64,000 bases of DNA from Pelolinea sp. Its GTDB lineage: Bacteria; Chloroflexota; Anaerolineae; Anaerolineales; Anaerolineaceae. The position numbers were made by a program, and so were the translations under genes. How positions within the stretch are numbered: position 1 is the stretch's first letter; each line of letters opens with the position of its first letter. Below, piece by piece: positions 309 to 14,143 of the stretch. The stretch covers positions 1 through 64,000 of the forward strand of contig JAAZOD010000014.1 in NCBI GenBank assembly GCA_012797975.1. Direction: 5' to 3'. The notes beneath the pieces are model-generated. The model did not search any database and was not told the DNA's origin. It was given only the letters and a program-made list of their open reading frames with translations.

Positions 309-929
309 ATGGAGAATCTACAGCAAACCAAACATATGCAGTCGATCCTTGTGACCAGCACAAGGACATATGTGAATAATGCATCCATTGCAGCAGATCT
401 GGCTGCTATGGTAGCCCAATCGGGCAAGAAAACGGTATTGATGGATGCAGACCTGAACCGGCCGGTCATTCACCGAGTTTTCGAGTTGCCCAATCGCGTA
501 GGATTGAGCGATGTGCTGCAGGGGCAACGCACTGCCAATGCCATTATGCACTCCATGCTGGAAGGGAATTTGCACATCATCACCAGCGGCAGCATGCCCA
601 GCATGACCAAAGATCTCATCGGCACCAAGGAAATGAGCGCCCTGATCAAGCAATTGAAGCAGGAATACGAAAAGATCTTCATTCACGGCCCGGCTTTCTT
701 TTACAACGAAGCCACCCTGCTGGCGGCCCAGGTAGATGGTGTGGTTTTAATGATCAACCCCAGCTATGCAAAATCGGAAGCCACACAAGCGATCGTCGAA
801 CGATTTCAAAAAACCGGTTCCACCATCATCGGGATAGTCATGCGCGACCAACCTAAATACCAATCCAACCAATCCACATTCATCAACCGGCTTCTGAGCT
901 ATGACAAGCATAATCGCATGGAATCTTGA
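309..929 (+). CDS. BY-kinase/MinD-like P-loop protein with degenerate nucleotide-binding motifs
   Basis: The fold pattern is that of CpsD/CapB-type bacterial tyrosine kinases and MinD-like ATPases: an opening beta strand (SILVTST), the Walker A' strand VLMDADLNRP, then LPNRVGLSDVL, which is typical of exopolysaccharide tyrosine kinases. The Walker A segment that should read GKST-like reads YVNNAS, so the invariant lysine and the Ser/Thr are missing. The Walker B segment reads IFIHGPAF, with His where Asp is expected. No C-terminal tyrosine cluster is seen. It is therefore probably a pseudo-ATPase or scaffold in polysaccharide export or partitioning. An in-frame GTG lies at 294, but ATG 309 has a purine-rich stretch upstream and is preferred. 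Family assignment is fairly secure; loss of activity is inferred from the missing residues. Confidence 0.75.
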   Translation: MENLQQTKHMQSILVTSTRTYVNNASIAADLAAMVAQSGKKTVLMDADLNRPVIHRVFELPNRVGLSDVLQGQRTANAIMHSMLEGNLHIITSGSMPSMTKDLIGTKEMSALIKQLKQEYEKIFIHGPAFFYNEATLLAAQVDGVVLMINPSYAKSEATQAIVERFQKTGSTIIGIVMRDQPKYQSNQSTFINRLLSYDKHNRMES

Positions 930-961
930 CCGCTGTACATCCGGATAATTTTCCATCCACT

Positions 962-986
962 GGCTGCTTTTTCAGAAAAAGCAGCC
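962..986 (+). terminator. Hairpin terminator after the pseudo-BY-kinase gene
   Basis: An 11-bp perfect stem (GGCTGCTTTTT / AAAAAGCAGCC) with a 3-base loop lies 33 bases after the stop codon and is followed by TCTTCATTT. The T-rich tract is imperfect. It lies between two convergent genes. Confidence 0.6.
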
Positions 987-1077
987 TCTTCATTTAAAAA
1001 GCTGCCTTCTTTGGATCATCAATGCTGATCTCCCCTGAAAAAAGAACTTTCCTTTTTGCCATCCTATGAAAGGATGC

Positions 1078-1518
1078 TTAATGTAAACGTTGCAGGATGG
1101 CGCTCAACAGAATGGATGCTCCCAGTGCAACAAAAAACCCGGGGATCACCATGATGGGGGCGAACATTCCACAGCTGCCGGCTGCCAGACCCAAGAACAC
1201 GAAAACATACAGAAAGAGCATGGTCAAATTGTGGCGTAACTTTTTAATGAAGATACGCAGCAACAATTCAACCGTAAGAATGGCCGCGTTCCCCAACAAA
1301 AGCAGGGGGATGACCCGAAAATCGAAGGCATAACTCGCCAGCCAACTGCGCAGGAAGGGAAACCACACCAGATCGGGCAGGCGCCAATCAGCCACCCAGT
1401 GTTGAAAACCAGCCAGGATGGCAATCCCCATCCAGATCAACATCAGCGCCCAGATCACAGTGGCAAATCTGTCGTTGGCAATAATTTCATCCCGGTCGCG
1501 GTACCCTAGATCATCCAT
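1078..1518 (-). CDS. Small integral membrane protein, paralogue of the upstream gene
   Basis: The 146-residue product has four likely membrane segments (roughly residues 20-37, 70-88, 95-112 and 118-140) and a charged N-terminus. The pattern IW-x4-IWMGI followed by a segment ending in LLLRIFIKK resembles the neighbouring protein at 1584-2057 (AVLIWAGV, then IEVLTRLFV), so the two look like tandem duplicates. They are transcribed in the same direction about 65 bases apart. No enzymatic motif is visible, and it is left as an uncharacterised membrane protein. Confidence 0.7.
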   Translation of the reverse strand: MDDLGYRDRDEIIANDRFATVIWALMLIWMGIAILAGFQHWVADWRLPDLVWFPFLRSWLASYAFDFRVIPLLLLGNAAILTVELLLRIFIKKLRHNLTMLFLYVFVFLGLAAGSCGMFAPIMVIPGFFVALGASILLSAILQRLH

Positions 1519-1583
1519 GGTGCTCTATTATAAAACAAAAGTGGCATGTTTGTTCAACATGCCACTTCCATCATGCCATTGCT

Positions 1584-2057
1584 TCACTTCTTCTTTACCA
1601 ACCCACTTACCACCACACTCACCCCCACAGCGATCAACATGAGCGGCCAGAGAACATACCAGTTCAGGAAAGGTGAAAGTCCCCATCCCAGCAGAAAAAC
1701 CGCCAATACGATCTTTCCTGCCACATTGGCTTTGAACTCAGGGACAAAAAGGCGGGTCAGGACCTCGATCAAGACAATGATCCCGGCTCCAACCGCGATC
1801 ATGTGGAAGGTGCTGAAATCTATCAGTCCGACCCATCCATGAAAAAATCCAAAATCACGAGCATTCATTCCGAGCGAACGCCACCAGCCCAAGTTACGAC
1901 CCAGGAAAACAACACCCGCCCAGATCAGGACCGCCGCCCAGGCAATGGAACTCAGCAGATCGTTTTCACCTGTTCCTTCTTTTGGGTTTTCCTGTTCCTT
2001 CTCTATTTTTTCCTCGACCATTTTTTCATCTTTTTTCTTGACATCATTCTCAGACAT
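1584..2057 (-). CDS. Small integral membrane protein with acidic/basic N-terminal tail
   Basis: The 157-residue product starts with about 35 mostly Lys and Glu residues, which should be cytoplasmic and possibly coiled. Four hydrophobic segments follow (about 37-53, 80-100, 113-130 and 134-152), and the protein ends KKK. It is the larger of two tandem paralogues and probably the first gene of a two-gene unit. The start ATG at 2057 has GGAGGAAAC upstream on the minus strand, a strong ribosome-binding site. The function is unknown. Confidence 0.7.
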   Translation of the reverse strand: MSENDVKKKDEKMVEEKIEKEQENPKEGTGENDLLSSIAWAAVLIWAGVVFLGRNLGWWRSLGMNARDFGFFHGWVGLIDFSTFHMIAVGAGIIVLIEVLTRLFVPEFKANVAGKIVLAVFLLGWGLSPFLNWYVLWPLMLIAVGVSVVVSGLVKKK

Positions 2058-2148
2058 ATGTTTCCTCCAACGATACGGTTCTCGTTACATTACTAATACG
2101 GAAGAATGGGAGATAGGTTTCTCAAAAAAAGATGGGGGATCCGGGGAA

Positions 2149-3228
2149 TCAATCGCCCAATTCCTGGTTGAAAAAATCGATCATGCGCTGAATGAAAAGT
2201 GTATCGCCGCTGTTTTGAAAGGTATGCGGCTGCCCGTCGTAGAAATAACAATAGACTTTCTTTTGCAAGGCACCCAGATCGGTGCACAACTGGTCGGACC
2301 ATTCCTTCGGCACAACCGTATCCGCCGTACCGTGGTGGATGCTGACGGGGGCGGCGATGTGGTCAAGATAGGTGCTGGCGGAAAGGGAACGCAGCACTTC
2401 ATCGGTAGTGTGAATGGCCGGATTCCCGCGCCCATCATCCGTATCAAAGAACGCCAGATTGATCTTCTCATCCGCATTGATGGAGGCATACAATACGGCC
2501 GCATCGATATCCGTATCGATCTCCAGAACACGCAACACAATGCCGCCGCCCATGCTGTGCCCCCAAACGCCAATGCGTTCTCCATCCGCTTTTTCCAGCA
2601 GGCCTGCCGTGCCGGCCTGGGTGCGGATGAGCGCCAGCAGGTTCAACGTGTCAATGGTATCGCCGATGCCCACCGGGTCATAGGCATCCTCCGATGCTCC
2701 ATACCCGCGCAGGTTGGGATGCACCACAATGTAACCGGCTTCTGCCAGCGCATCGGCGTAGCGGGTGGAATAATCGAGCATGCTGTACTCCGCCGGATCG
2801 ACATAGCCATGCAGCACGACCACCACCGGGAAGGGACCTTCCCCATCCGGCACGTTCAAAAACCCATACAGCTCCAATCCTTCGCTGCGGTATTTAAAAA
2901 TGTAGCGTACGAAAGAAGCATTGTTCGCCAAGACCCCCTTATTCTGGAGCACGCCCCCGCCGTAGGTGCGCGCGCTCAACGCCTCCATGGTGTAGCGGTC
3001 ATACGGGTTGGGGGTGGGGGTGATGGTAGGCAGGGGGGTTGTGGTAAATTCCGGAGTGGGAGCGATGGTGGGCGTAAGGGTGGGAATGGGCGTGACAGTA
3101 GGGCTGACGCGCTGTATCAGCGGCTGGGGAAGCGTCTCTTCTTTCCCGCAAGCGGCAAAAAGGACCAAGAAAACTGCGATCGATAAAAAGACGATGCGGT
3201 GCAGAAGGTGCTTAGCGGTACTGGACAT
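2149..3228 (-). CDS. Lipoprotein alpha/beta hydrolase (S9-like peptidase or esterase)
   Basis: The chosen ATG gives a protein of 359 residues that begins with a lipoprotein signal peptide ending LFAACGK. A Thr/Pro-rich linker follows (about residues 35-70), then an alpha/beta-hydrolase domain. The oxyanion segment VVVLHGY, the nucleophile elbow GHSMGGG, the acid in GTADTVVP and the catalytic His in GQPHTF are all present. Such proteins are tethered outside the cytoplasmic membrane and cleave peptides or esters; the substrate cannot be told from sequence. A longer reading frame extends upstream but lacks a signal peptide at its start, so the internal Met was preferred. A long opposite-strand frame over this gene is treated as its shadow. 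Confidence 0.85.
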   Translation of the reverse strand: MSSTAKHLLHRIVFLSIAVFLVLFAACGKEETLPQPLIQRVSPTVTPIPTLTPTIAPTPEFTTTPLPTITPTPNPYDRYTMEALSARTYGGGVLQNKGVLANNASFVRYIFKYRSEGLELYGFLNVPDGEGPFPVVVVLHGYVDPAEYSMLDYSTRYADALAEAGYIVVHPNLRGYGASEDAYDPVGIGDTIDTLNLLALIRTQAGTAGLLEKADGERIGVWGHSMGGGIVLRVLEIDTDIDAAVLYASINADEKINLAFFDTDDGRGNPAIHTTDEVLRSLSASTYLDHIAAPVSIHHGTADTVVPKEWSDQLCTDLGALQKKVYCYFYDGQPHTFQNSGDTLFIQRMIDFFNQELGD

Positions 3229-3422
3229 GTCCGTGATAATACTATGATTTTCCACTGGCGATAAGTGACAGAAACCGAGATGGGCGCCGGATGGCAGAGA
3301 AAATTTCCGGCATCCCTCAATCGCTTTGAACAGCCACCGGGGTGTCTGTGTTTGTTGGATTCGCTGTAGACTGATAGAATACGGATGTAGTTCCAATAAC
3401 CCATTGTTTTTTCTGACCCAGG

Positions 3423-5633
3423 ATGAATAAGAATTCCAAAATCCACAGCGACAGAAGCATCCAGCCACCAATGTACGAGGATCTCTTTCACCACTCCGCC
3501 ACCCCGGCGGCGGTATTTGACTTTAAGGAACACTGCATCCTCGCCAACCATTCTTTCTACGTCCAACTGGGGTACCGGACCGGACAGGAGAGAGAGCCGG
3601 ACCTGGACCTTTTACAGATCTTTGAAGAAAAAGCCCAGGGCACTGCCTTCATCCGGCAACTTCGCGAAAGGCAGATCATCCGCAGGCATGAGATACGGTT
3701 GACGACCAAGAACGGGCGCGGTTTCCCCGTGCTGCTTTCCGGTCGCACGTTCTCCTCGGGGGAAGGGCAATATTTCCATGTCTCCTTCACCGATATTTCC
3801 CAGCTTAAAGAGCTGGAAGAGACCATTCGCAAAGACAGGGCAAAGATGGTCTCGATCATGGAGAACACCGCTGCCGGCCTGTTCTATGTGAACGCCGAAG
3901 GTATCTTGACCAACATCAACCTGAAACTTGTGGAACTGCTGGAAATCGAAGAAAAAGATTTTATCGGGCAGCCCTTCAGGATTTGGATGGGCAAACTGCT
4001 TTCCAAAACCTCAGAACCCGAGATCATCCAGCAGCGTATTTCCGCTGCCCTTGCCAATCTTGACCTGTATCCCAAGGTCGAATTTACCATGAAAACGGGC
4101 ATCACCCTCCATTATGAGATCGCATTTTTCCCAGTTCGGGATGAAGCGAATTCGCCGCTGGGCTGGGGAGGTCTGGTCCAGGATATCACCGAACTCAAAC
4201 AGCAAGTGAATTGGAAATTAGAACTGCTCTCCATTCTTTCCCACGATATTCGCTCCCCGCTGGCCACCCTGAAAGGCCACATTTCCATGCTGCAGGATAA
4301 TTATCAACAGTGGGGCACTGACATGGTCAAAGATTTTTTGGATACCATCGGGAAAAACGTGGATAAGCTCGCGCACCAGGTCGACCGCAACCTGGCGTTG
4401 ACCCGCGTGGAAGGGGGCGATCTGGGGTTGCGCCCGCAAAGCATGGACCTGGTGGCCTGCGCGGAGCAAGCCATCGCCTTCATTTCAGAGAAAAAAGAGC
4501 ACCTGATCATTGATCTGATCCACGATGATGCCCTTCCGAAAACGCGCGCCGATGCCGCACGCATTGAGGAGGTGTTCATCAATTTGCTGGATAATGCCGT
4601 TCGCTACAATCCGGCCGGGAAGAACATCATCATTGAAATCCACGCCAGCGCATCCTGGTTGGTCGTCTCGGTCCGGGATTTTGGAAAAGGAATTCCGGCA
4701 GATAAACAAAAAACGATCTTCGATAAATATGTGCGCGTGGATGAAGAGGAAGGCGGAACAGGGCTGGGATTGTATATTTCGCGCAAGATCATTGAAGCGC
4801 ACGGCGGCCAGATCAGAGTCCAGAGCCCCCTGCCGGATAGGAAGGCGGGCACGGAATTCATCTTCACCCTGCCGGTCACAATTCCTTCCCGTCCGCATGA
4901 CATCACAACGGATCGGCTCCCCGCCGGCACTCCTGCCACCAACCACGAGGCCACCATCCTGGTGATCGAAGACGAAAGCGATTACCTGTTACTTCTAAAA
5001 ACCCTGCTGAGCGAAGAGGGATACCAGGTTGAGACCGTCAGCAACGGTATTTCAGCACTGGATGTGATCAGGATCTCTCCGCCCGATCTCATCCTTCTGG
5101 ATTGGATGCTGCCCGGCATGAACGGATTGGCCGTTTGCCAGGGGATCCGCCGTTCCACCAACATCCCCATCATCGTAGTCACCTCCTGCACCGACCAGGA
5201 AGAGCTGTTGACCGCATTTGACGCCGGAGCAGACGATTATCTGATAAAACCATTCGACCGCAAGGAATTGTTTGCCAGGATTCGGGCGCTTTTGCGCAGG
5301 GAAGAGTCGGCCCAATCCCCTTCCAGGTCCAGCCGTTTCAGCGCGCATGGGTTGGTCATTGATTTCGACACCCGCGAGGTGTGGCTGGACGGAAAGAATC
5401 TCTTCCTCTCCATGACGGAATATGAAATCCTTGAATATCTGGCACGGCACCGGAATCAATTGCTGACCTACGACCAAATCACCGATAGCATTGACGCCTT
5501 GAAACCAGATCAAGACCGGAATGCATTGTATGTGCACATCAGTCGCCTGCGCTCCAAGATCGAACCGGATCCCAAGAACCCCAGCCATCTCATCACCCGT
5601 TGGGGGATCGGTTATGTGTTCATGCCCTACTGA
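3423..5633 (+). CDS. Soluble PAS-PAS histidine kinase fused to receiver and OmpR-type winged helix
   Basis: This 736-residue protein carries a whole two-component pathway in one chain. Two PAS-like sensor domains occupy about 20-130 and 140-265. The HisKA H-box LSHDIRSPLA has the phospho-acceptor His at 274. The HATPase domain has an N-box (NLLDNAVRYNP), G1 (DFGKGIP) and G2 (GGTGLGLYI). A receiver starts near 511, with the acidic pair IEDE, phospho-acceptor Asp560 (LLDWMLPG) and the conserved Lys in LIKPF. The C-terminus (about 640-736) is an OmpR/PhoB winged helix ending RWGIGYVF. There is no membrane segment, so it senses a cytoplasmic cue. It precedes the alpha-crystallin genes at 5767 and 6229 and is a good candidate to control them. 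The fused output domain replaces the usual separate response regulator. Confidence 0.92.
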   Translation: MNKNSKIHSDRSIQPPMYEDLFHHSATPAAVFDFKEHCILANHSFYVQLGYRTGQEREPDLDLLQIFEEKAQGTAFIRQLRERQIIRRHEIRLTTKNGRGFPVLLSGRTFSSGEGQYFHVSFTDISQLKELEETIRKDRAKMVSIMENTAAGLFYVNAEGILTNINLKLVELLEIEEKDFIGQPFRIWMGKLLSKTSEPEIIQQRISAALANLDLYPKVEFTMKTGITLHYEIAFFPVRDEANSPLGWGGLVQDITELKQQVNWKLELLSILSHDIRSPLATLKGHISMLQDNYQQWGTDMVKDFLDTIGKNVDKLAHQVDRNLALTRVEGGDLGLRPQSMDLVACAEQAIAFISEKKEHLIIDLIHDDALPKTRADAARIEEVFINLLDNAVRYNPAGKNIIIEIHASASWLVVSVRDFGKGIPADKQKTIFDKYVRVDEEEGGTGLGLYISRKIIEAHGGQIRVQSPLPDRKAGTEFIFTLPVTIPSRPHDITTDRLPAGTPATNHEATILVIEDESDYLLLLKTLLSEEGYQVETVSNGISALDVIRISPPDLILLDWMLPGMNGLAVCQGIRRSTNIPIIVVTSCTDQEELLTAFDAGADDYLIKPFDRKELFARIRALLRREESAQSPSRSSRFSAHGLVIDFDTREVWLDGKNLFLSMTEYEILEYLARHRNQLLTYDQITDSIDALKPDQDRNALYVHISRLRSKIEPDPKNPSHLITRWGIGYVFMPY

Positions 5634-5766
5634 GTTTCAAAGCTCTTTTTCCTGCACAAACCGAAAGAATTTTGCAAGATTTTCCGCCACCCTGCAAGAA
5701 CTTTGAAAGACCCCTGCTCTAGAATCTTCATTGTTGACCTCATTAAAAAACAATTCAGGAGCAACC

Positions 5767-6144
5767 ATGGAAATATCCCGAGCAATAGATACCGTTGAAA
5801 CTGCAAAACCGGAAGAAGAACCCGCAGGATTCTCGATCGAGCCCGATTGGAGCAGCGTCCCTTCCCCACTTTTTTCGAAGGTCGATTTTGTTGAAAGGAA
5901 GGATCATCTGCTCATTCAAATCGCACTTCCGGATGTCGATCTCTCCGATATCAAGATCACCGCATCGAACAAGACGTTGATCCTGCGCCTGCACCGTGAA
6001 GCGACAGGTAATTTCATCCGCGTCATCTCGCTTCCCACGCTGGTGAATTTCGAGCAGGGCAAAGCGGATTTTTCAAACAACATTTTAACCATCGGCTTTC
6101 CGATCCTGTCCTCCAGCCGTGAAATCGAGATCCAACACAGCTAA
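5767..6144 (+). CDS. Small Hsp20/alpha-crystallin-like protein
   Basis: The start ATG follows AGGAG at 5757-5761. The 125-residue product has an acidic N-terminal tail and then a compact beta-sandwich pattern of the Hsp20/CS type: FVERKDHLLIQIALPDVDL, then IKITASNKTLILRL, then ADFSNNILTIGFP. The last matches the family signature A-x-x-x-N-G-V-L-x-V-x-x-P. The C-terminus ends soon afterwards and lacks a clear I-x-I tail, so it is a minimal member. Small heat-shock proteins hold unfolded clients without ATP. It lies between the hybrid kinase gene and a gene whose N-terminus carries a similar domain, suggesting a common origin or joint assembly of the two. Confidence 0.8.
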   Translation: MEISRAIDTVETAKPEEEPAGFSIEPDWSSVPSPLFSKVDFVERKDHLLIQIALPDVDLSDIKITASNKTLILRLHREATGNFIRVISLPTLVNFEQGKADFSNNILTIGFPILSSSREIEIQHS

Positions 6145-6228
6145 CGAACCCGCGTTTTCCAGAACAAAATCTGTCATGAAGACTGGAGAAACTGAAACAG
6201 TCTTCTATTTCCATACTATGAGGTAAAA

Positions 6229-7866
6229 ATGGCCCATCCTTTCAACCAAAACCGCGTTTCCGGAATTGAAAAACAGCATCTGGTGGTGGATACCCATCTG
6301 TCTGTCGAAGCTTTCACCCTGTACGTTGCGCTGCCACCCATCCATGTACAGGATGAAAAATTGCACATTACCATCCTGGGCGACAATCTCACGATCAATT
6401 ACGAATTTCAACTCGAAAATTTTCACAGCCAGTCCAGGATCATCACACTCCCTGCTCATGTTGACCGGGATAAACTCAGTACGGAATTTGAAAATCGTAC
6501 GCTGCGGCTGGTCCTTCCCATTAATGAGAAAAGAGAACAAGAACAGGATTCCGTCATTTTTCTGACCTTTCCTGAGGAAGCGGGAAAAGCAAAAAAAGAA
6601 TTGGATCTCTCGAGGAACGAGGTGGAAGAACCGCTTGTTTTCCTTCCCAATCCTTTCGTGGCAAGCGCGCGGCCGACCGCCCTGATCGATGCTCTTTTTT
6701 CCGAATCGGCCTGCAAGGAAGTGCGCGAATTCCATGCGACCATCCCCGGATTTGAGACCAGCCCGCTGGTTTCGCTTCCCAACCTGGCACGCATGCTGGG
6801 CATTCGCAGTTTATGGGTCAAGGACGAGTCAAAACGGCTGCAGTTGAACGCCTTCAAGGTTTTGGGCGGATCGTACGCCATCGCCAAAACCATCCAATCC
6901 CTGGTAGGAGATAAAAGCGGCCTTCTGCGTTTCGAAGACCTGACCGCGGAGAGGACAAGCCAGAGGATCAGCGAGATCACCTTCGCTGCCGCAACCGATG
7001 GAAACCACGGCAAGGGTGTGGCGTGGGCAGCAGCACAGCTCGGCTACCGGTCCGTTATTTACGTTCACAAACTGACCTCCCAAGCCCGCATCCAGGCCAT
7101 TGAGAAGAACGGTGCAGAGGTGGTAGTGGTGAATGGGACCTACGATGATGCGGTTCGCCAGGTGAACGAGGATGCACAGCGCAACGGCTGGATGGTCATT
7201 TCAGACACCGCCTGGGAAGGATATGAAGATATCCCGCGCTGGGTGATGCAAGGATACACCACCATGTTTTCCGAGGCACAGAGCCAGTTCGCCGAACAAG
7301 GGATCGAAAAACCAAGCCACATCCTGGTCCAGGCAGGGGTGGGAGCGCTGGCAGCGGCCACCATCGGGTTCTATGCCGCACATTTCGGCCCACAACGCCC
7401 ACGAACGATGGTGGTCGAGCCCAATAAAGCAGCGTGTCTCTTCCACTCCATTGAAATTGGCGATGGTCAGCCCCATTCTTTTGGAGGGGAACTGGATACG
7501 ATCATGGCCGGGCTGGCGTGCGGTGACCCCAATCCACTGGCATGGCCGATCTTGAAAGACTGCACGGACTATTTCCTGCAGTGCCCCGATTATGTGGCCG
7601 CCAAAGGGATGCGCGTCTACGGATTACCGCTGAAAAATGATCCTTGCATCATCTCCGGAGAATCCGGGGCGGTCACCCTGGGCGCCCTGATGTTCCTGAT
7701 GCAGTGGGGGCAGACCGAATCCTTGCGCAAAGAACTGCAGATCGGCCTTCAGTCGGACGTTTTGTTGATCAACTCCGAAGGCAACACCGACCCCGATCAT
7801 TTTCGCAACGTGGTATGGGATGGAGGAGAATCCGTTCCAGCGATCTACAAGAATTACTGGCCATAA
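6229..7866 (+). CDS. Hsp20-like domain fused to diaminopropionate ammonia-lyase
   Basis: One uninterrupted 545-residue frame joins two normally separate proteins. Residues about 15-110 form an alpha-crystallin/CS-like beta-sandwich (LSVEAFTLYVALPP, then FENRTLRLVLPI). A charged linker (about 110-135) leads into a complete fold-type II PLP enzyme. This part carries ETSPLVSLPNLARMLG, the PLP lysine in NAFKVLGGSYA (Lys210), AATDGNHGKGVAWAA (Asp257) and DTAWEGYEDIP (Asp326). The Lys/Asp/Asp set matches the catalytic lysine and two aspartates of E. coli diaminopropionate ammonia-lyase, with the same Asp-Asp spacing of 69. The enzyme splits 2,3-diaminopropionate into pyruvate and ammonia. The ATG has AGGT upstream, and the next gene starts 25 bases after the stop. 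The ammonia-lyase call is strong; the function of the fused chaperone domain is unknown. Confidence 0.9.
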   Translation: MAHPFNQNRVSGIEKQHLVVDTHLSVEAFTLYVALPPIHVQDEKLHITILGDNLTINYEFQLENFHSQSRIITLPAHVDRDKLSTEFENRTLRLVLPINEKREQEQDSVIFLTFPEEAGKAKKELDLSRNEVEEPLVFLPNPFVASARPTALIDALFSESACKEVREFHATIPGFETSPLVSLPNLARMLGIRSLWVKDESKRLQLNAFKVLGGSYAIAKTIQSLVGDKSGLLRFEDLTAERTSQRISEITFAAATDGNHGKGVAWAAAQLGYRSVIYVHKLTSQARIQAIEKNGAEVVVVNGTYDDAVRQVNEDAQRNGWMVISDTAWEGYEDIPRWVMQGYTTMFSEAQSQFAEQGIEKPSHILVQAGVGALAAATIGFYAAHFGPQRPRTMVVEPNKAACLFHSIEIGDGQPHSFGGELDTIMAGLACGDPNPLAWPILKDCTDYFLQCPDYVAAKGMRVYGLPLKNDPCIISGESGAVTLGALMFLMQWGQTESLRKELQIGLQSDVLLINSEGNTDPDHFRNVVWDGGESVPAIYKNYWP

Positions 7867-7891
7867 AAAACGGATGGAAAGGAAGCAGGCA

Positions 7892-8254
7892 GTGACACCG
7901 ATCGACATACAGAAGATCAAAAAAGAATTGGAAGAGAAAAGAAAAGAACTTTTGACTTTTCTGAACTCCCCCCAGGCAAGCGAAAAAGGGAACCAGGATA
8001 ATTATGAGCTGGCACAGCATTACCAGATCTCGGAACAAAAGAACTCATTGAATTCCCATAACCAGAAGCTGCTGGCACAAATCGAGGATGCGCTGGGAAA
8101 AATAGAGAACGGCACCTACGGGGTATGCGACCATTGCGGCAAGCCCATCGATCCTGACCGACTGAAGATCCTGCCGTATGCCAGTTACTGCATGGAATGC
8201 CTGAACAAATTCCCTTCGAAACTGGTCTATTCCTCATCGAACGAGGAGAGGTGA
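7892..8254 (+). CDS. TraR/DksA-family zinc-finger protein
   Basis: The product has an N-terminal helical stretch rich in Lys and Glu (coiled coil, about residues 5-75) and a C-terminal four-cysteine zinc finger: CDHCGKPI, then 17 residues after the second Cys, then CMEC. That is the layout of TraR/DksA proteins, which bind in the RNA polymerase secondary channel and alter promoter response, often under starvation or stress. GTG at 7892 sits 8 bases after an AAAGGAAG ribosome-binding site. Upstream in-frame ATGs at 7874 and 7820 are possible, the latter overlapping the preceding gene. It ends the 3.4-8.3 kb cluster and is followed by a strong terminator. Confidence 0.85.
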   Translation: MTPIDIQKIKKELEEKRKELLTFLNSPQASEKGNQDNYELAQHYQISEQKNSLNSHNQKLLAQIEDALGKIENGTYGVCDHCGKPIDPDRLKILPYASYCMECLNKFPSKLVYSSSNEER

Positions 8255-8292
8255 GACAGGCATTCTGGCAAAACAGCAAATTTCTTAACAGT

Positions 8293-8330
8293 GCATAAAA
8301 AAAGCGAGGGATCCCTCGCTTTTTTTATGC
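8293..8330. terminator. Bidirectional terminator, 19-bp perfect palindrome
   Basis: The 38 bases are an exact inverted repeat with centre GCGAGGGATCCCTCGC and A7/T7 flanks, so it can form a GC stem followed by a U-tract on either strand. It lies between the convergent TraR-like gene and the RpiB-like gene. Confidence 0.9.
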
Positions 8331-8362
8331 ATGGTATTTCCGGCTGCCGCACCAATGATATT

Positions 8363-8836
8363 TCAGGCAGCCATGGATGTCCGCTTCTTATCCAATTCCT
8401 TGATCATCTCCACCTTGGGCAGCGACCTTCCACCGGCAAATTCGCTCTTCAACCAGATATCCAGATTCTTTTTGGCAGCGTCCACGCCGATCACCTGGCT
8501 GCCGAAGGCGGCGATCTGCGCATCGTTGCTGGCACGCGCCCGCTCGGCGGAATAGGGATCATGGATGACCGCGGCACGAATGCCCGGGATCTTGTTGGCG
8601 GTGACGGCCATGCCGATGCCCGTGCCGCACACCAGGATGCCCCGCTCATAACCCTCTTTCAACAGCTTTTCACAGAGAACGATCGCGATCTGGGGATACA
8701 GTGTTTTTTCATTCCCGTCCACCCCCACATCGATCACATCATATCCTTTTTCTTTCAAGTATTCCTTTAATTGGCCCTTCAGAACATAGCCGTTCTCATC
8801 GGATCCAATCAAGATGGAACGTTTGGTTTCAACCAT
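8363..8836 (-). CDS. RpiB/LacAB-family sugar-phosphate isomerase
   Basis: The 157-residue length and the pattern GSDxxGYxLKxxLKxYL, CGTGIGMAVTANK, HDPYSAERARASNDA and GSQVIG identify the RpiB/LacAB family, which interconverts aldose and ketose phosphates through an enediol using the cysteine in CGTGIG. The usual GSDHAG phosphate-binding motif reads GSDENG here, so the conserved His is replaced by Glu, and NN-A is N-D-A. The substrate may therefore differ from ribose-5-phosphate. The minus-strand start is preceded by GGAGATG. It stands alone and converges on the TraR-like gene. A link to the nearby PTS locus is possible but unproven. Confidence 0.85.
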   Translation of the reverse strand: MVETKRSILIGSDENGYVLKGQLKEYLKEKGYDVIDVGVDGNEKTLYPQIAIVLCEKLLKEGYERGILVCGTGIGMAVTANKIPGIRAAVIHDPYSAERARASNDAQIAAFGSQVIGVDAAKKNLDIWLKSEFAGGRSLPKVEMIKELDKKRTSMAA

Positions 8837-9013
8837 TAAAAATCATCTCCATGAGCATTTATCAATAAACTTGAATATCAAAAAACATCAAGAACCAGAT
8901 GAAATTTTAATCGCAAAGCCGCCCTGGAACCGTTCCGCGCAAATTTGCATTTTTGTGAAAAGCATTGCAGTAAGCCGAAAAACACGATCATTTTCCTATG
9001 ACCGCGTCCGCGA

Positions 9014-9041
9014 TGAACCCGGCAGGGTTCGAACCTGCGAC
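9014..9041 (-). pseudogene. 3' fragment of a tRNA gene (T-arm plus acceptor strand only)
   Basis: The minus strand contains a 5-bp T-stem (GCAGG/CCTGC) with a 7-base loop TTCGAAC, followed by CGGGTTC and A as acceptor 3' strand and discriminator. No matching 5' acceptor strand, D-arm or anticodon arm is present in the next 100 bases. Aligned with the 3' end of the intact tRNA at 10203-10274, 24 of 27 bases are identical. It is a remnant or an attachment-site duplicate. Confidence 0.65.
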
Positions 9042-9121
9042 AGGATAGATAATATCTCTTTTCCCTATGAGCATATATAATTGCATTTTCCAAGCATTTT
9101 CTCAAGGATCAAAAATACAGT

Positions 9122-10147
9122 ATGACAAAACAAACTCCGACCACCCGTGATTGGCTCGAAAAAGCGAATGAAGCCACCCAACCCGAAGAGCAAATTCGCT
9201 GCTACACCGAAGCAATCAAATTAAATCCCAAACTAATTCTTGCATATTTCCAACGTGGAAATTGTTATGCAAATCTAGGTCAATCTGTAAACGCGATCGA
9301 AGACTACGATCGTGCTCTCCACCTCGAACCTGAGATGATCGGGGCATATATCAACCGCGGACTGTGCCATGCAAATCTGGATCAACATGAGAAAGCAGTC
9401 GCTGATTACAGTTCGGCTGTCCAGCTCGATCCTGAAAATGCTGAAATCTATTACTACCGCGGAAACAGTTCTGTTCACCTGGAGCAGAATGAAAAAGCGA
9501 TTGAGGATTTCAGCCAGGCGATCAGACTCGACCCGGCCTTTGCGTATGCTTATGGTAATCGCGGTCTCAGCTACTCCAATCTGGGTCAGGATGAAAAAGC
9601 AATCTTTGATTATGACCAGGCCGCCCGTCTTGATCCTGAAAATGCTTCCATCTATTACAATCGTGGAAACAGCCATGCCTACCTGAGGCAACACGAGAAA
9701 GCAATTGACGACTACAGCCGGGCGATCAGCCTCGACCCTGAAATGGGTGAAGCGTATTACAACCGTGGGAATTGTTACGGTCATCTTAAGCAGTATGCAA
9801 AGGCGATCGAAAGTTACAGCCAGGCCATCCAGCTTGAACCCGATATTGCTTATGCCTATAACAACCGCGGACTGAGCTATGCAAATCTGGGACAGCATGA
9901 TAAGGCGATCGCCGATTACGACCGGGCGATCAGTCTCGATCCCGAAATGGAGGATGCGTATTACAACAAAGCCTGTTCCTGTGCTTTTCAGGATAAAACG
10001 AAAGAAGTTCTAATGAATCTTCGCCTGGCTCTCCAGTTCGGCCCGCAGAAATATCACGAGTTGGCAGGAAGTGATACTGCCTTTGCAAAGATAAGGGGGA
10101 ATGCCGATTTCCAGAATTTACTTCAAGAGTATTGCGATAAATGCTGA
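9122..10147 (+). CDS. Tetratricopeptide-repeat protein
   Basis: The 341-residue product consists of about eight consecutive 34-residue TPR units (for example AYNNRGLSYANLGQHDKAIADYDRAI split over two helices) with the conserved pattern A-Y-x-N-R-G, Y-x-x-L-x-x, A-I-x-D-Y and L-D-P. There is no signal peptide or membrane segment, so it should be a cytoplasmic scaffold for protein binding. A short non-repeat tail (about residues 290-341) ends in CDKC. Repeats are very similar at the DNA level, indicating recent internal duplication. It lies between a tRNA 3' fragment and an intact tRNA, so it may be cargo of an integration event. Confidence 0.85.
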   Translation: MTKQTPTTRDWLEKANEATQPEEQIRCYTEAIKLNPKLILAYFQRGNCYANLGQSVNAIEDYDRALHLEPEMIGAYINRGLCHANLDQHEKAVADYSSAVQLDPENAEIYYYRGNSSVHLEQNEKAIEDFSQAIRLDPAFAYAYGNRGLSYSNLGQDEKAIFDYDQAARLDPENASIYYNRGNSHAYLRQHEKAIDDYSRAISLDPEMGEAYYNRGNCYGHLKQYAKAIESYSQAIQLEPDIAYAYNNRGLSYANLGQHDKAIADYDRAISLDPEMEDAYYNKACSCAFQDKTKEVLMNLRLALQFGPQKYHELAGSDTAFAKIRGNADFQNLLQEYCDKC

Positions 10148-10202
10148 CTTTGAGGCCGGTTCAGATTGCCCAGCCCACATCATTTCACACAAAAAGTAGC
10201 AA

Positions 10203-10274
10203 TGGGCCCGGCAGGATTCGAACCTGCGACCAAGCGGTTATGAGCCGCGCGCTCTGCCGCTGAGCTACGGGCCC
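10203..10274 (-). tRNA. tRNA-Ile2 (anticodon CAT, lysidine type)
   Basis: Read on the minus strand, the sequence folds as a cloverleaf with acceptor GGGCCCG/CGGGCCC, D-arm TAGCTCAGCGGCAGAGC and T-arm GCAGGTTCGAATCCTGC. The anticodon loop is CTCATAA. A CAT anticodon could be Met or Ile2. The bases after the anticodon (CATAACCGCTTGGTCGC) closely match bacterial tRNA-Ile2, whose C34 is changed to lysidine by TilS, so Ile2 is preferred. CCA is not encoded. Confidence 0.88.
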
Positions 10275-10445
10275 GGCATCAGCCAGCGCAAGCATTATAA
10301 CATTGAATGTCCCTCGCTCCGATAAAAAGGTTTTTCTCACCATCGTGGAATTGCCGGAGGATCATTTTCCACCCTTTATGCCCATGCTCTTCCCGGTTCA
10401 TTCTCTCAAATTAATCCATTCCATGCTCGATCAGGTATAATTAAG

Positions 10446-10478
10446 GACAATGGAGCCCGGTTGCAGAGCTCCATTGTC
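10446..10478 (-). terminator. Hairpin after the PTS operon
   Basis: A perfect 11-bp stem (GACAATGGAGC / GCTCCATTGTC) with an 11-base loop lies 35 bases beyond the stop of the EIIC gene. On the minus strand it is followed by CTTAATT, a weak U-tract, so termination is likely but may be inefficient. Confidence 0.5.
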
Positions 10479-10512
10479 TGTTTGCTTGGTAAGAGGTGCT
10501 ATACGACTATTC

Positions 10513-11799
10513 TTAGAAGATCAAACTGACGATCTGCTTGAAGAAGATCGGGAAAACGGAATAGTCAAAGTCGTTGGACCAACGTGCAAAATCTGCGATG
10601 GTCGTGGGGAGAGCAGACACGGTCAGGAACTGACCAAATGACATCAGCAGACCGGCCACGATGCCAGCCAAGATAGCACCTCTCCAACCACCCGTGGAAT
10701 TGCCGAACACACCGGCAGGTCCTCCACCAAAGAAGGTGGTGATCACGGGCGGGGTCAGCGCATACAAACCAACAGCTCCAAAGACAACCACACAAACAAT
10801 AACGGTGGCCAGGCAGCTCAAGAAGCCCAGCATCACAGCGGTAGGTGCATAGTTGAAAACCACCGGACAATCCAGGGCGGGGATGGCATTGGGGACGATC
10901 TTTTCAGAGATACCTTTAAAGGCGGTGGTGATTTCTGCGATCATCATGCTCACGCCGGTCAATACGATGGTGATGCCCACGCCGAACTTGACACCCTGGG
11001 TGATGGCATACATGAAGGCGGCTTGACCGCCGCTGATATTGGCTTCGATCCAAGCCGGGCCAGCCAGCGCAACGCAGATCACATACAGCAGGGTCATGAC
11101 GATCGCGGTGGAAACCGTGATATCTTTCAAGAAGTTCAGAGATTCAGGGATCTTCAGATCTTCGGATGATTCATCCTTTTTACCCTTGAAAGCATTGCCG
11201 ACCAAAGAACCAACAATCACGCCGAAGGACGTAGTATGCCCGTAAGCCAGATCATTGGAACCGGTAACTTTGCGCATGAATGGCTGCACCAGGGCAGGAG
11301 ATAACGTGCAGTAAAGACCGGTGAGGATACCACCCAGGGCAATCAGCAGTGATTTATTGGGGGTGGGAACGACCTCAATGAAAATCGCCAGATAGACGAA
11401 AATGATGTAATAGGTCTGGTGGGCGGTAAGGTAGACATATTTGAACTTTGTGAAGCGAGCTAACAGTAAGTTCACAAAGAACCCAACCACCATGATGATG
11501 GCGATCGTTGATGCCCAGCTCGATGTGAAGGCATCGGTGCCCATGCCGGTCGTGGTCGCCTGAACGCCGATGACCTTGTTCAGAATGGTGGCGATGGGAA
11601 GAACGATGCCAGCCAACAATGAAGTACCCTGTGAAAGGATCAGGTACCCAATGCCAGTTTTAAAGGAACCGGTAATGACATCCTGGATGGGTTTCTTCTG
11701 AACGATCAAGCCAAGCATGGCGACCAAGCCCAACAGGATAAAGGGCTGGTTGAAGATGTAAGTGCTCATGAAATGTACAATCGCATTTAATACTGCCAT
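10513..11799 (-). CDS. PTS ascorbate-type EIIC permease (UlaA/SgaT family)
   Basis: The 428-residue protein is highly hydrophobic with about ten membrane segments. Family-typical stretches are the N-terminus with QPFILLGLVAMLGLIVQKK, GTSLLAGIVLPI, LTAHQTYYI, SNDLAYGHTTSFGV and FFGGGPAGVFGNSTGGWRGA. These belong to the L-ascorbate/galactitol superfamily of PTS permeases, which carry and phosphorylate sugar with partner EIIA and EIIB. It is the last gene of an operon read leftward: regulator, EIIA, NanE, SIS isomerase, EIIB, EIIC. Its start has AGGAGGTTC upstream. The sugar is probably an acetylated amino sugar because NanE lies in the operon, but that is inference. Confidence 0.88.
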   Translation of the reverse strand: MAVLNAIVHFMSTYIFNQPFILLGLVAMLGLIVQKKPIQDVITGSFKTGIGYLILSQGTSLLAGIVLPIATILNKVIGVQATTTGMGTDAFTSSWASTIAIIMVVGFFVNLLLARFTKFKYVYLTAHQTYYIIFVYLAIFIEVVPTPNKSLLIALGGILTGLYCTLSPALVQPFMRKVTGSNDLAYGHTTSFGVIVGSLVGNAFKGKKDESSEDLKIPESLNFLKDITVSTAIVMTLLYVICVALAGPAWIEANISGGQAAFMYAITQGVKFGVGITIVLTGVSMMIAEITTAFKGISEKIVPNAIPALDCPVVFNYAPTAVMLGFLSCLATVIVCVVVFGAVGLYALTPPVITTFFGGGPAGVFGNSTGGWRGAILAGIVAGLLMSFGQFLTVSALPTTIADFARWSNDFDYSVFPIFFKQIVSLIF

Positions 11800-11881
11800 T
11801 TTAAGAACCTCCTAATTCTAATTTTTTCCTTTTTTATTTTTCGCTTGCAGTTCATTCTTTTTATTTTTCGATACCTGCCTC

Positions 11882-12178
11882 CTAGATCAGTTTTTTTTCT
11901 TTCAAGTAAGCGCCTATTTTTGTTTTTAGTTCCTCTTTATCCATCAGGTTCTTGATCACCACCACGGAAGGGCAGAAAGATCTGGCTTCGGCAGAAAAAG
12001 TCTCGAAAGTGATGATCAGGTCACACTTCGTGCCCTTGGCACGTGACATGCTGGTGTTGATCACCTGCACCCTGAAAGGCAACGCAAAGCTCTTGAACGC
12101 CTCATCCACATTCACCCTCAATAAAGTGCTGGTGCCAACCCCAGCGCCACAAACAGTCAATACCTTCAAATCAGCCAT
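11882..12178 (-). CDS. PTS EIIB component (UlaB/SgaB type)
   Basis: The 98-residue cytosolic protein begins with KVLTVCGAGVGTS, the phosphocysteine loop of lactose/ascorbate-type EIIB domains, and ends with an amphipathic helix (KTKIGAYLKEKKL). It accepts phosphate from the EIIA encoded at 13706-14143 and passes it to sugar bound in the EIIC. AAGGAGAACC precedes the start. The gene lies about 80 bases upstream of the EIIC gene in the same direction. Confidence 0.88.
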   Translation of the reverse strand: MADLKVLTVCGAGVGTSTLLRVNVDEAFKSFALPFRVQVINTSMSRAKGTKCDLIITFETFSAEARSFCPSVVVIKNLMDKEELKTKIGAYLKEKKLI

Positions 12179-12205
12179 TCGGTTCTCCTTAACCTCGCAT
12201 ACTCT

Positions 12206-12955
12206 CTATAAATTCCTGATCCTGTAGAAATATTTGTCCATCAGGCGATCATTATGCTCTTTGGCATCAGGCATCTCATAGGTCAAATGACCGTTGTAAT
12301 AAACGTCAGGCGTGAACCCTTGTTTGACCAGATTGTCACAGGTTTGCACCAGGAGAGAATTCAAAAGGAAAACGGTGGGGATGGTGGAAGTGGAGCCAAC
12401 CTTCATCGGAAAGCCCTCCAGGGCGACGGCTGCATCGCCGATCAGCGAACAATTATCGATGACCACATCCGCATAATCCTTCAATTTTTTCCCGGAAGAA
12501 TGCTGGGTGGTCAGAAAGTCCGAATACTCCACGTTGGTGAACACGATCAACGGCAAACCGCGTTGTTTGGCTTCCATCGCCACATCGATGGTAATGGCAT
12601 TGTTTCCGGAGTTGGAAATACAGATCATGACATCGGGGGGAGTGATGCGCTGATAATTCATCAAGACCTGCCCCATGCCTTCGATCTTTTCCATGAATCC
12701 GCTCTTCGTGATCTCGTTGATCCCCGCCACACTTGGTTCAAAGATGGCATGCACATTGGCCATGGTAGCCGCGCGCCAAAAGACATCTTCGGTGACAAGA
12801 CCGGAATGACCGCAGCCAAAAAGGTGGATGATCCCTCCCTTTTTGGTGCAATCCGTCAGGATGTCGGCCGCCTTTAAAATATTCTTTTCCTGTGTCTCTT
12901 GCGCTTTTTTCACAACCTCTTGCATGATCGAGAAATATTCCTGCCATACTTTCAT
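12206..12955 (-). CDS. SIS-domain sugar-phosphate isomerase (UPF0309-like), first of two paralogues
   Basis: The 249-residue protein is a single SIS domain. The nucleotide-free phosphosugar-binding loop LFGCGHSGL occupies about residues 45-53, ISNSGNNAITIDVA the second phosphate-binding stretch, and GDAAVALEG the C-terminal part. SIS domains bind phosphosugars and act as isomerases or sensors. Gene order within a PTS operon suggests it works on the imported sugar phosphate together with NanE. A similar protein lies at 16461-17192 in the same locus. AAAGGAGAG precedes the start. Confidence 0.8.
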   Translation of the reverse strand: MKVWQEYFSIMQEVVKKAQETQEKNILKAADILTDCTKKGGIIHLFGCGHSGLVTEDVFWRAATMANVHAIFEPSVAGINEITKSGFMEKIEGMGQVLMNYQRITPPDVMICISNSGNNAITIDVAMEAKQRGLPLIVFTNVEYSDFLTTQHSSGKKLKDYADVVIDNCSLIGDAAVALEGFPMKVGSTSTIPTVFLLNSLLVQTCDNLVKQGFTPDVYYNGHLTYEMPDAKEHNDRLMDKYFYRIRNL

Positions 12956-12976
12956 AATTTTTACTCTCCTTTGTCG

Positions 12977-13690
12977 TTAAAGTTTTGCATCCTGCAAAAT
13001 TGTCTTCACAATCTTTTTCGGCTCAGTAATAGAGGTGCCGATCACAACACAATAGGCGCCAGCATCCAGTGCTTTTCGCATCTTTTCACCATTCGTGATC
13101 CGACCTTCCGCCACGATATGCTTCACACCCGCTTTCTTCAATTCCGCAATGATCTCATAATCGGGATCGGGGCTGGGCAGAGTGCCAAAGCGGATCGGAT
13201 TTTTCGAATAGGGGGTATATCCCGAAAGGGTGGTGCCCACCATATCCGCCCCGTATTCCCATGCTGCGACACCTTCCTCGAGGGTGGAAATATCCGTGAT
13301 AAGGAAAGCATTGAATTGACGCTTGATCTCGGAAATGAATTCGCGGACGGTCAGAGTGTCATAACGCTCGCGAAGCGTGCCGTCGATGGCGATCGCATCC
13401 GCCCCGGCTTTCAGCAACACTTCCACTTCTTTTAAGGTAGGAGTGATCCTGAAATCGCCCTCGAACATGTCGCCACTTTTATAGATCTTCTTGATGCCGA
13501 TGACAGGTACCTGCACGGCTTTTTTGATCGCAGACACGTTATCGTAATTGGTACGGATAGCACATGCGCCGCCGACAATGCAGCTATTCGCCACACAGAG
13601 CATGGTTTCAGGTCGAGCCATTTCTTCATTGAAATCCGCGCCCGCGTAACACGATACGATCAATCCATTCTTGAACTTTTCCAGCAGCAT
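12977..13690 (-). CDS. nanE: N-acetylmannosamine-6-phosphate 2-epimerase
   Basis: The 237-residue TIM-barrel protein matches NanE throughout: GLIVSCYAGA at the start, IRTNYDNVSAIKKAV, VPVIGIKKIY with the lysine expected for proton abstraction, GADAIAIDGT, DISTLEEG, GADMVGTTLSGYTP and the catalytic-type glutamate in IVAEGRI. The enzyme converts ManNAc-6-phosphate to GlcNAc-6-phosphate. NagA and NagB, which would continue the pathway, are not in this window. GGAGAG lies just upstream of the start. Confidence 0.9.
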   Translation of the reverse strand: MLLEKFKNGLIVSCYAGADFNEEMARPETMLCVANSCIVGGACAIRTNYDNVSAIKKAVQVPVIGIKKIYKSGDMFEGDFRITPTLKEVEVLLKAGADAIAIDGTLRERYDTLTVREFISEIKRQFNAFLITDISTLEEGVAAWEYGADMVGTTLSGYTPYSKNPIRFGTLPSPDPDYEIIAELKKAGVKHIVAEGRITNGEKMRKALDAGAYCVVIGTSITEPKKIVKTILQDAKL

Positions 13691-13705
13691 GAAATCTCTC
13701 CTTTT

Positions 13706-14143
13706 CTAAAACTCGATATCCTTAAGGCAAACCGCTTCTTGCAGGGCTTGCAAGTTTTTCTCTTCCGAAATGAATTCAGCGACCGCTTTGAACATCACCA
13801 GATGCTCCTTATTCGTCCGTGCCGCAATGGCAAACAGATAATGGACAGGGTCATTATCCTTGTTCCCGAAATTCACTCCCTGTGGAATGGTCAACAGTGC
13901 AACCTGATTCTTGAACACATTCCCGTTCGGGCGCGCGTGTGCCAGCGCGACCCCCGGCATGATGACAATATAAGGCCCGTTCGTCTCCACCATTTTGACC
14001 ATGTCCTCACGGTATCGCTCGTTAATGCTTCCCGAACCGATCAGCATGTTCCCCGCGAAACGGACCGCATCCTGCCAGCTACTAAAGTTCTCATTGAGAT
14101 GGATGTTTTCTTCAGAAATAAAATCTTTCAGTGTCATGCTCAC
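13706..14143 (-). CDS. PTS EIIA component (mannitol/ascorbate type, UlaC-like)
   Basis: The 145-residue protein is a PTS EIIA type-2 domain. The segment PGVALAHARP carries the phosphohistidine, and LLTIPQGVNFGNKDNDPVHYLFAIAA is the typical core. It receives phosphate from HPr, plausibly the one encoded at 17227-17502. A GTG start at 14143 overlaps the TGA of the regulator gene (GTGA), which implies translational coupling. An ATG two codons in, at 14137, is the alternative start. Confidence 0.88.
   Translation of the reverse strand: MSMTLKDFISEENIHLNENFSSWQDAVRFAGNMLIGSGSINERYREDMVKMVETNGPYIVIMPGVALAHARPNGNVFKNQVALLTIPQGVNFGNKDNDPVHYLFAIAARTNKEHLVMFKAVAEFISEEKNLQALQEAVCLKDIEF

Follow-up and report, generated by a model that had tools for sequence, protein, structure and literature searches.

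An alpha-crystallin-type domain joined to a probable diaminopropionate ammonia-lyase in Pelolinea

Does one gene of this Pelolinea contig truly join an alpha-crystallin-type domain (ACD) to a diaminopropionate ammonia-lyase (DpaL) and, if it does, what might such a domain do on such an enzyme? The features that bear on the question are collected in Table 1, with positions counted in the window, the whole stretch of 64,000 nucleotides that was analysed. The frame at 6229-7866 on the forward strand has no internal stop, and a GAGGT ribosome-binding site lies 4 bases ahead of its ATG. A collinear orthologue, also of 545 residues, is found in a second species of the genus (G002, the source genome being G000). 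It is 67.5% identical without a single gap and has the same GAGGTAAAAATG start, and the gene order around it is that of the window: sensor-regulator, stand-alone ACD, fusion, DksA/TraR-type gene. An assembly artefact or a frameshift is thereby ruled out. The sequence-only reading of the locus had both parts in one frame, and had named absence from close relatives or a frameshift between the parts as grounds for giving the idea up; the frame proves uninterrupted and the fusion conserved in the second species, whose orthologue keeps the frame.

Table 1. Features of the fusion gene and its cassette, in window positions
Feature	Position	Strand	Evidence or remark
Sensor-regulator, PAS-PAS-HisKA-HATPase-receiver-Trans_reg_C, 736 aa	3423..5633	+	Pfam; G002 counterpart 72.8% identical, gapless, same place
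Stand-alone loop-less ACD protein, 125 aa, C-terminal I-E-I	5767..6144	+	PF17886 2.6e-7; G002 counterpart 52%
Ribosome-binding site GAGGT of fusion gene	6220..6224	+	GAGGTAAAAATG identical in G002
ACD-DpaL fusion gene, 545 aa	6229..7866	+	One ORF; collinear 545-aa G002 orthologue
Fusion ACD, residues 16-113	6274..6567	+	Profile and fold evidence; dN about 0.5, dS saturated
Linker, residues 114-131	6568..6621	+	pLDDT <50; 27.8% identity, no indel between species
Complete DpaL, residues 132-545	6622..7863	+	Profile and 4d9g matches; unfused homologues begin here
PLP lysine K210	6856-6858	+	Aligns with K77 of 4d9g
Catalytic aspartate D257	6997-6999	+	Aligns with D120 of 4d9g
Catalytic aspartate D326	7204-7206	+	Aligns with D189 of 4d9g
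DksA/TraR-type zinc protein, 120 aa, GTG start assumed	7892..8254	+	PF01258 3.3e-12; G002 and G001 counterparts

Comparison of the two species also bears on selection. Identity is 78.5% in the lyase core, 45% in the fused ACD and 27.8% in the linker. For the ACD, dN is 0.47-0.50 and dS is saturated (about 2.3 by one estimate); a domain that stays in frame and gapless at such values is under some constraint, and we hold the ACD-DpaL fusion to be real and selected with near certainty. The independent fusion lineages available number only two. A further genome (G001) is nearly identical to G002; there the end of the contig breaks the lyase, and the DksA-like gene after it is kept. Expression of a free lyase from an internal start is unlikely: the in-frame TTG125 and GTG132 of the source gene have no counterpart in the second species, and the linker holds no in-frame start codon common to both. 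In the full-length AlphaFold model the linker is disordered, the lyase part is mostly above pLDDT 90 and the N-domain is of low confidence, with two sequences only in that region.

The enzyme part matches NF006058 over residues 155-535 (E = 3.4e-156; 519.8 bits against a cut-off of 276) and TIGR01747 (471.7 bits; cut-off 274), and with the narrower TIGR03528 it falls just below the cut-off (512.6 bits against 532). In a search of the PDB, E. coli DpaL/YgeX (4d9g; EC 4.3.1.15) is matched with E = 2.9e-114, the likeness extending to the whole catalytic domain, the active-site lysine and two aspartates and a cysteine pair (C403/C431). K210, D257 and D326, already picked out from the letters, align as expected with the structure and are invariant or nearly so across 40 DpaLs. 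Known DpaLs have about 400-420 residues, as against 545 in the fusion, and the first residue of the unfused family homologues corresponds to about residue ~132 of the fusion; the native enzyme is therefore contained in full. The lyase had been described as apparently complete, and with NF006058 far above its cut-off and the catalytic set present the description holds. Judged from these matches, the lyase is very probably an active DpaL. It would presumably convert 2,3-diaminopropionate to pyruvate and ammonia, which we take to be the reaction of the family.

DpaL is sensitive to what precedes it. N-terminal tags bring the E. coli and Salmonella enzymes down from 80 and 190 to ~4 U/mg, and cleavage of a GST tag restores activity about 10-fold (PMC4000059). 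Extra N-terminal domains thus do affect DpaL and, by analogy, a natural domain at this end could tune lyase activity; the published effect may fail to apply to the fusion. The engineered His-, GST-, MBP- and SUMO-DAL proteins of that study resemble the fusion in bearing a domain on the DpaL N-terminus through a short linker, but they are artificial, less active and relieved of the domain by protease, whereas the fusion is natural.

What kind of domain lies at the N-terminus? Its best Pfam match is PF17886 (ArsA_HSP20), which gives 23.3-23.5 bits with the excised domain of the source protein, against a cut-off of 22.5, and a sub-threshold 19.7 bits with the whole protein; the whole orthologue of the second species gives no match at E 0.01. 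PF00011 (HSP20) reaches 13.7-16.5 bits, below its cut-off of 20.8. When the two fused N-domains were made into a profile and run against 4649 frames, many from loci that had been retrieved with the fusion N-domain as query, the best non-self matches were canonical Hsp20s (best E = 4e-10). A profile built from the four cassette ACDs and run against PDB sequences gives a more independent check: 3w1z came first (E = 1.2e-9), and every match better than E 0.9 was a small heat-shock protein (sHSP). With the AlphaFold model of the N-domain, sHSPs are the top folds (Foldseek 8e-6; VIA Z 9-10) and CS domains score slightly below sHSP ACDs; because the alignment behind the model held canonical Hsp20s, the sHSP outcome was favoured. 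The sequence-only reading had named a failure to match Hsp20 by profile as a ground for refutation; Hsp20-type profiles do match, as do Hsp20-type folds, and the N-domain is thus an alpha-crystallin-type domain.

Within that superfamily its place can be narrowed further. With sHSPs such as MjHsp16.5, S. pombe Hsp16 and AgsA it shares the beta-sandwich fold, and the C-terminal I-x-I of sHSPs is common to the stand-alone neighbour. The fusion ACD differs from them in scoring below the PF00011 cut-off, in having no beta-6 dimerisation loop and in being attached to an enzyme. The beta-6 stretch, some 13 residues present in all 22 canonical Hsp20s aligned, is absent from both ACDs of the cassette. 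The only I-x-I-like sequence in the fusion is I-F-L/I-V-L ahead of the linker, and the conserved ACD arginine, R70 of the fusion, is lysine in the second species. The beta-6 loop forms the dimer in non-metazoan sHSPs (PMC4823740). An ACD without it is that of Get3d, for which neither dimers nor oligomers were found (PMC10248533). The cassette ACDs, fused and stand-alone, thus appear by sequence to resemble the loop-less Get3d/ArsA_HSP20 type rather than canonical bacterial Hsp20. The Hsp20 label originally given to the N-domain therefore survives, by profile and fold, as a statement about the ACD, but it was too specific for a domain that is loop-less and under the PF00011 cut-off.

Get3d is not among the structure matches listed by Foldseek, VIA or the PDB-sequence profile search, and kinship may exist all the same. 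The likeness to Get3d (PMC10248533) is that of a loop-less ACD fused to an enzyme. There the ACD is C-terminal, on a Get3/ArsA ATPase, whereas here it is N-terminal, on a PALP/DpaL PLP enzyme; and the accessible text on Get3d describes no stand-alone ACD partner, DksA or sensor gene with it, while all three accompany the fusion.

The distribution of the fusion is narrow. No further ACD-DpaL fusion was found in 147 genomes of the family, 396 of the class and 400 of the phylum (overlapping sets), nor among 80 DpaL loci, and none of the DpaL homologues examined outside the genus carries an ACD. No Hsp20-type match lies near the unfused DpaLs examined, and the viral contigs searched gave no match. 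Several candidates were rejected: a frame of 1008 residues in G1077 is a read-through in DNA of 76% G+C, a long tblastn match on a Rhizobium plasmid proved to be a normal DpaL frame (431 residues), and the longer DpaL frames of the family are stop-to-stop extensions. The three DpaL sequences of the genus form one clade (100/100) inside the Chloroflexota DpaLs; two further genomes (G003 and G004) have no DpaL, but are only 80-85% complete. Most simply, the fusion arose once, in this genus, to which it is restricted on these sequence comparisons. As a separate observation, the DpaL frame of G016 (L011/L040; 400 residues) aligns with just two parts of the query, 131-216 and 245-543, the stretch between them being possibly deleted.

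The fusion stands third in a set of four genes which, with intergenic gaps of 25-133 bases in the window, form an apparent operon; scans for promoters and terminators gave nothing above chance. The gene ahead of the fusion had been taken for a stand-alone relative of the N-domain and is indeed of the same superfamily, PF17886 scoring above cut-off for the stand-alone ACDs of both species; their tails read I-E-I in the source genome and I-N-I in the second species. Tails of the I-x-I kind bind the beta4-beta8 groove of a neighbouring ACD and mediate sHSP assembly (PMC4823740). The DksA/TraR-type protein is 60.7% identical between the two species and matches NF033459 with 1.1e-21, yet below the cut-off of that model. 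The kinase has its receiver and its OmpR-type DNA-binding domain in one polypeptide. Elsewhere in the order, its counterparts from other families are 37-47% identical and have different neighbours, none of them an ACD gene; the kinase is therefore not tied to ACDs. The stand-alone ACD gave weak, generic Hsp20 matches only in 301 genomes of the order and, on these two grounds, occurrence of the cassette elsewhere was rejected.

Two further observations concern the surroundings. A TPR-repeat protein is encoded downstream of the cassette (9122-10147) and its counterpart in the second species, 63.8% identical, sits beyond the kinase, the gene being near the cassette in both species on opposite sides. 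On the minus strand, 8363-16239 encodes an RpiB/LacAB isomerase, PTS EIIC-GAT, EIIB, a SIS-domain protein, a NanE-type epimerase, EIIA and a PRD/EIIA regulator, which may together serve the uptake of amino sugars.

How might the fused ACD work? The best overall explanation, to which we give a probability of roughly 45%, is that a tethering or regulatory ACD sits on an active lyase and has a stand-alone partner. A loop-less ACD has been attached by a short flexible linker at the point where the native lyase starts, the lyase being full-length and probably active, and the ACD would serve as an interaction module, not as a free oligomeric holdase. Most likely it would bind the co-encoded stand-alone ACD, whose I-x-I tail would enter the beta4-beta8 groove; the lyase would thereby be held in an ACD assembly and depend on the state of that assembly for its activity or stability, and the cassette would be switched by its own sensor-regulator. 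The component claims differ in strength. That the fused ACD is a binding or assembly module for the stand-alone partner is, on sequence grounds, a tentative proposal a little short of even odds; that it gates lyase activity, by analogy with the tagged enzymes, is doubtful; and it is rather improbable that the loop-less ACD holds the lyase in a low-active or partner-assembled state from which stress, through the sensor-regulator or ACD assembly, releases or recruits it. The sensor-regulator at the head of the four genes suggests that their expression is under the control of a signal. In the stringent response DksA-type proteins target RNA polymerase, a role established for the E. coli DksA; stress or starvation is therefore a plausible setting. 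Against the explanation we count that the fused ACD is less conserved than the lyase core and that R70 is not kept in the second species; the failure of the loop-less Get3d ACD to dimerise or oligomerise (PMC10248533) also counts against ACD-ACD binding.

Alternatively, the ACD could be a passenger, the stop codon having been lost between two adjacent genes of one operon, a second ACD gene and dpaL; the lyase would work like its unfused relatives, with an ACD that only solubilises it or does little and co-expression as the sole selected link. The poorly conserved linker and an ACD that diverges far faster than the lyase fit such an origin, as does the ACD gene directly upstream, expected from a tandem ACD pair before dpaL. 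It is likewise in keeping with it that unfused relatives have no ACD gene near dpaL, which ties the fusion to this single locus. What tells against it is an ACD that remains gapless and in frame, with dN about 0.5 against a saturated dS, in two species, and the harm that N-terminal additions do to known DpaLs makes a neutral passenger less expected. We consider a passenger unlikely but not negligible.

The sequence-only reading had named enzyme stabilisation under stress among the possible roles. On such a view the ACD would be a classical intramolecular chaperone, an sHSP holdase that prevents the lyase, or clients brought to it, from coming out of solution when heat or oxidative stress strikes. 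The likeness to sHSPs in sequence and fold, the I-x-I tail of the stand-alone neighbour and the presence of the DksA/TraR-like gene and the sensor-regulator in the same gene set would suit it. But with the beta-6 dimerisation loop missing and PF00011 below cut-off, a chaperone-like domain that stabilises the enzyme under stress finds no specific support; the comparable Get3d ACD does not oligomerise (PMC10248533), and three canonical Hsp20 genes of the source genome are there for such a task. A holdase is thus improbable, and the tethering or regulatory ACD remains our preferred explanation.

A possible source of the substrate lies elsewhere in the genome. SsnA is encoded at C25:87789-89111 (486.5 bits against a cut-off of 455.5). 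Positions 514-11147 of the locus L204 (C25:78001-97000) hold xanthine-dehydrogenase subunits, an F420-type LLM oxidoreductase, cofC/cofD/cofE and SsnA, followed on the opposite strand by an M20 dipeptidase-like gene. Such clusters have been assigned to uric-acid breakdown in Chloroflexota (PMC12507026), which makes this pathway a possible source of diaminopropionate. One could go further and see in the fusion the last enzyme (YgeX) of a Chloroflexota-type reductive uric-acid pathway, localised by its ACD to the pathway enzymes. The genes of the cluster are those of the published case (PMC12507026), and the fusion is the sole DpaL of the genome. YgeY (TIGR03526), however, reaches at best 31.4 bits in the source genome against a cut-off of 321.5, and the genes are on separate contigs. 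SsnA is found in 116 of the 147 family genomes and DpaL in 36, SsnA being present in 83 of the 111 without DpaL as against 33 of the 36 with it. Contact between the fusion and the pathway enzymes would be a supposition, and we think this explanation very improbable.

The ACD-DpaL fusion was not found in the open-access literature searched, and the combination looks undescribed. As a loop-less ACD-enzyme fusion is already known in Get3d, what is new here is the PLP-lyase partner, the reverse domain order and the operon with a second ACD.

With this gene a PLP lyase joins the short list of enzymes known with an alpha-crystallin-type domain. The system brings its own comparison, in the unfused DpaLs of the family, the ACD partner in the operon and a published assay of N-terminal extensions, so that the role of loop-less ACDs on enzymes, Get3d included, becomes directly testable with few proteins.
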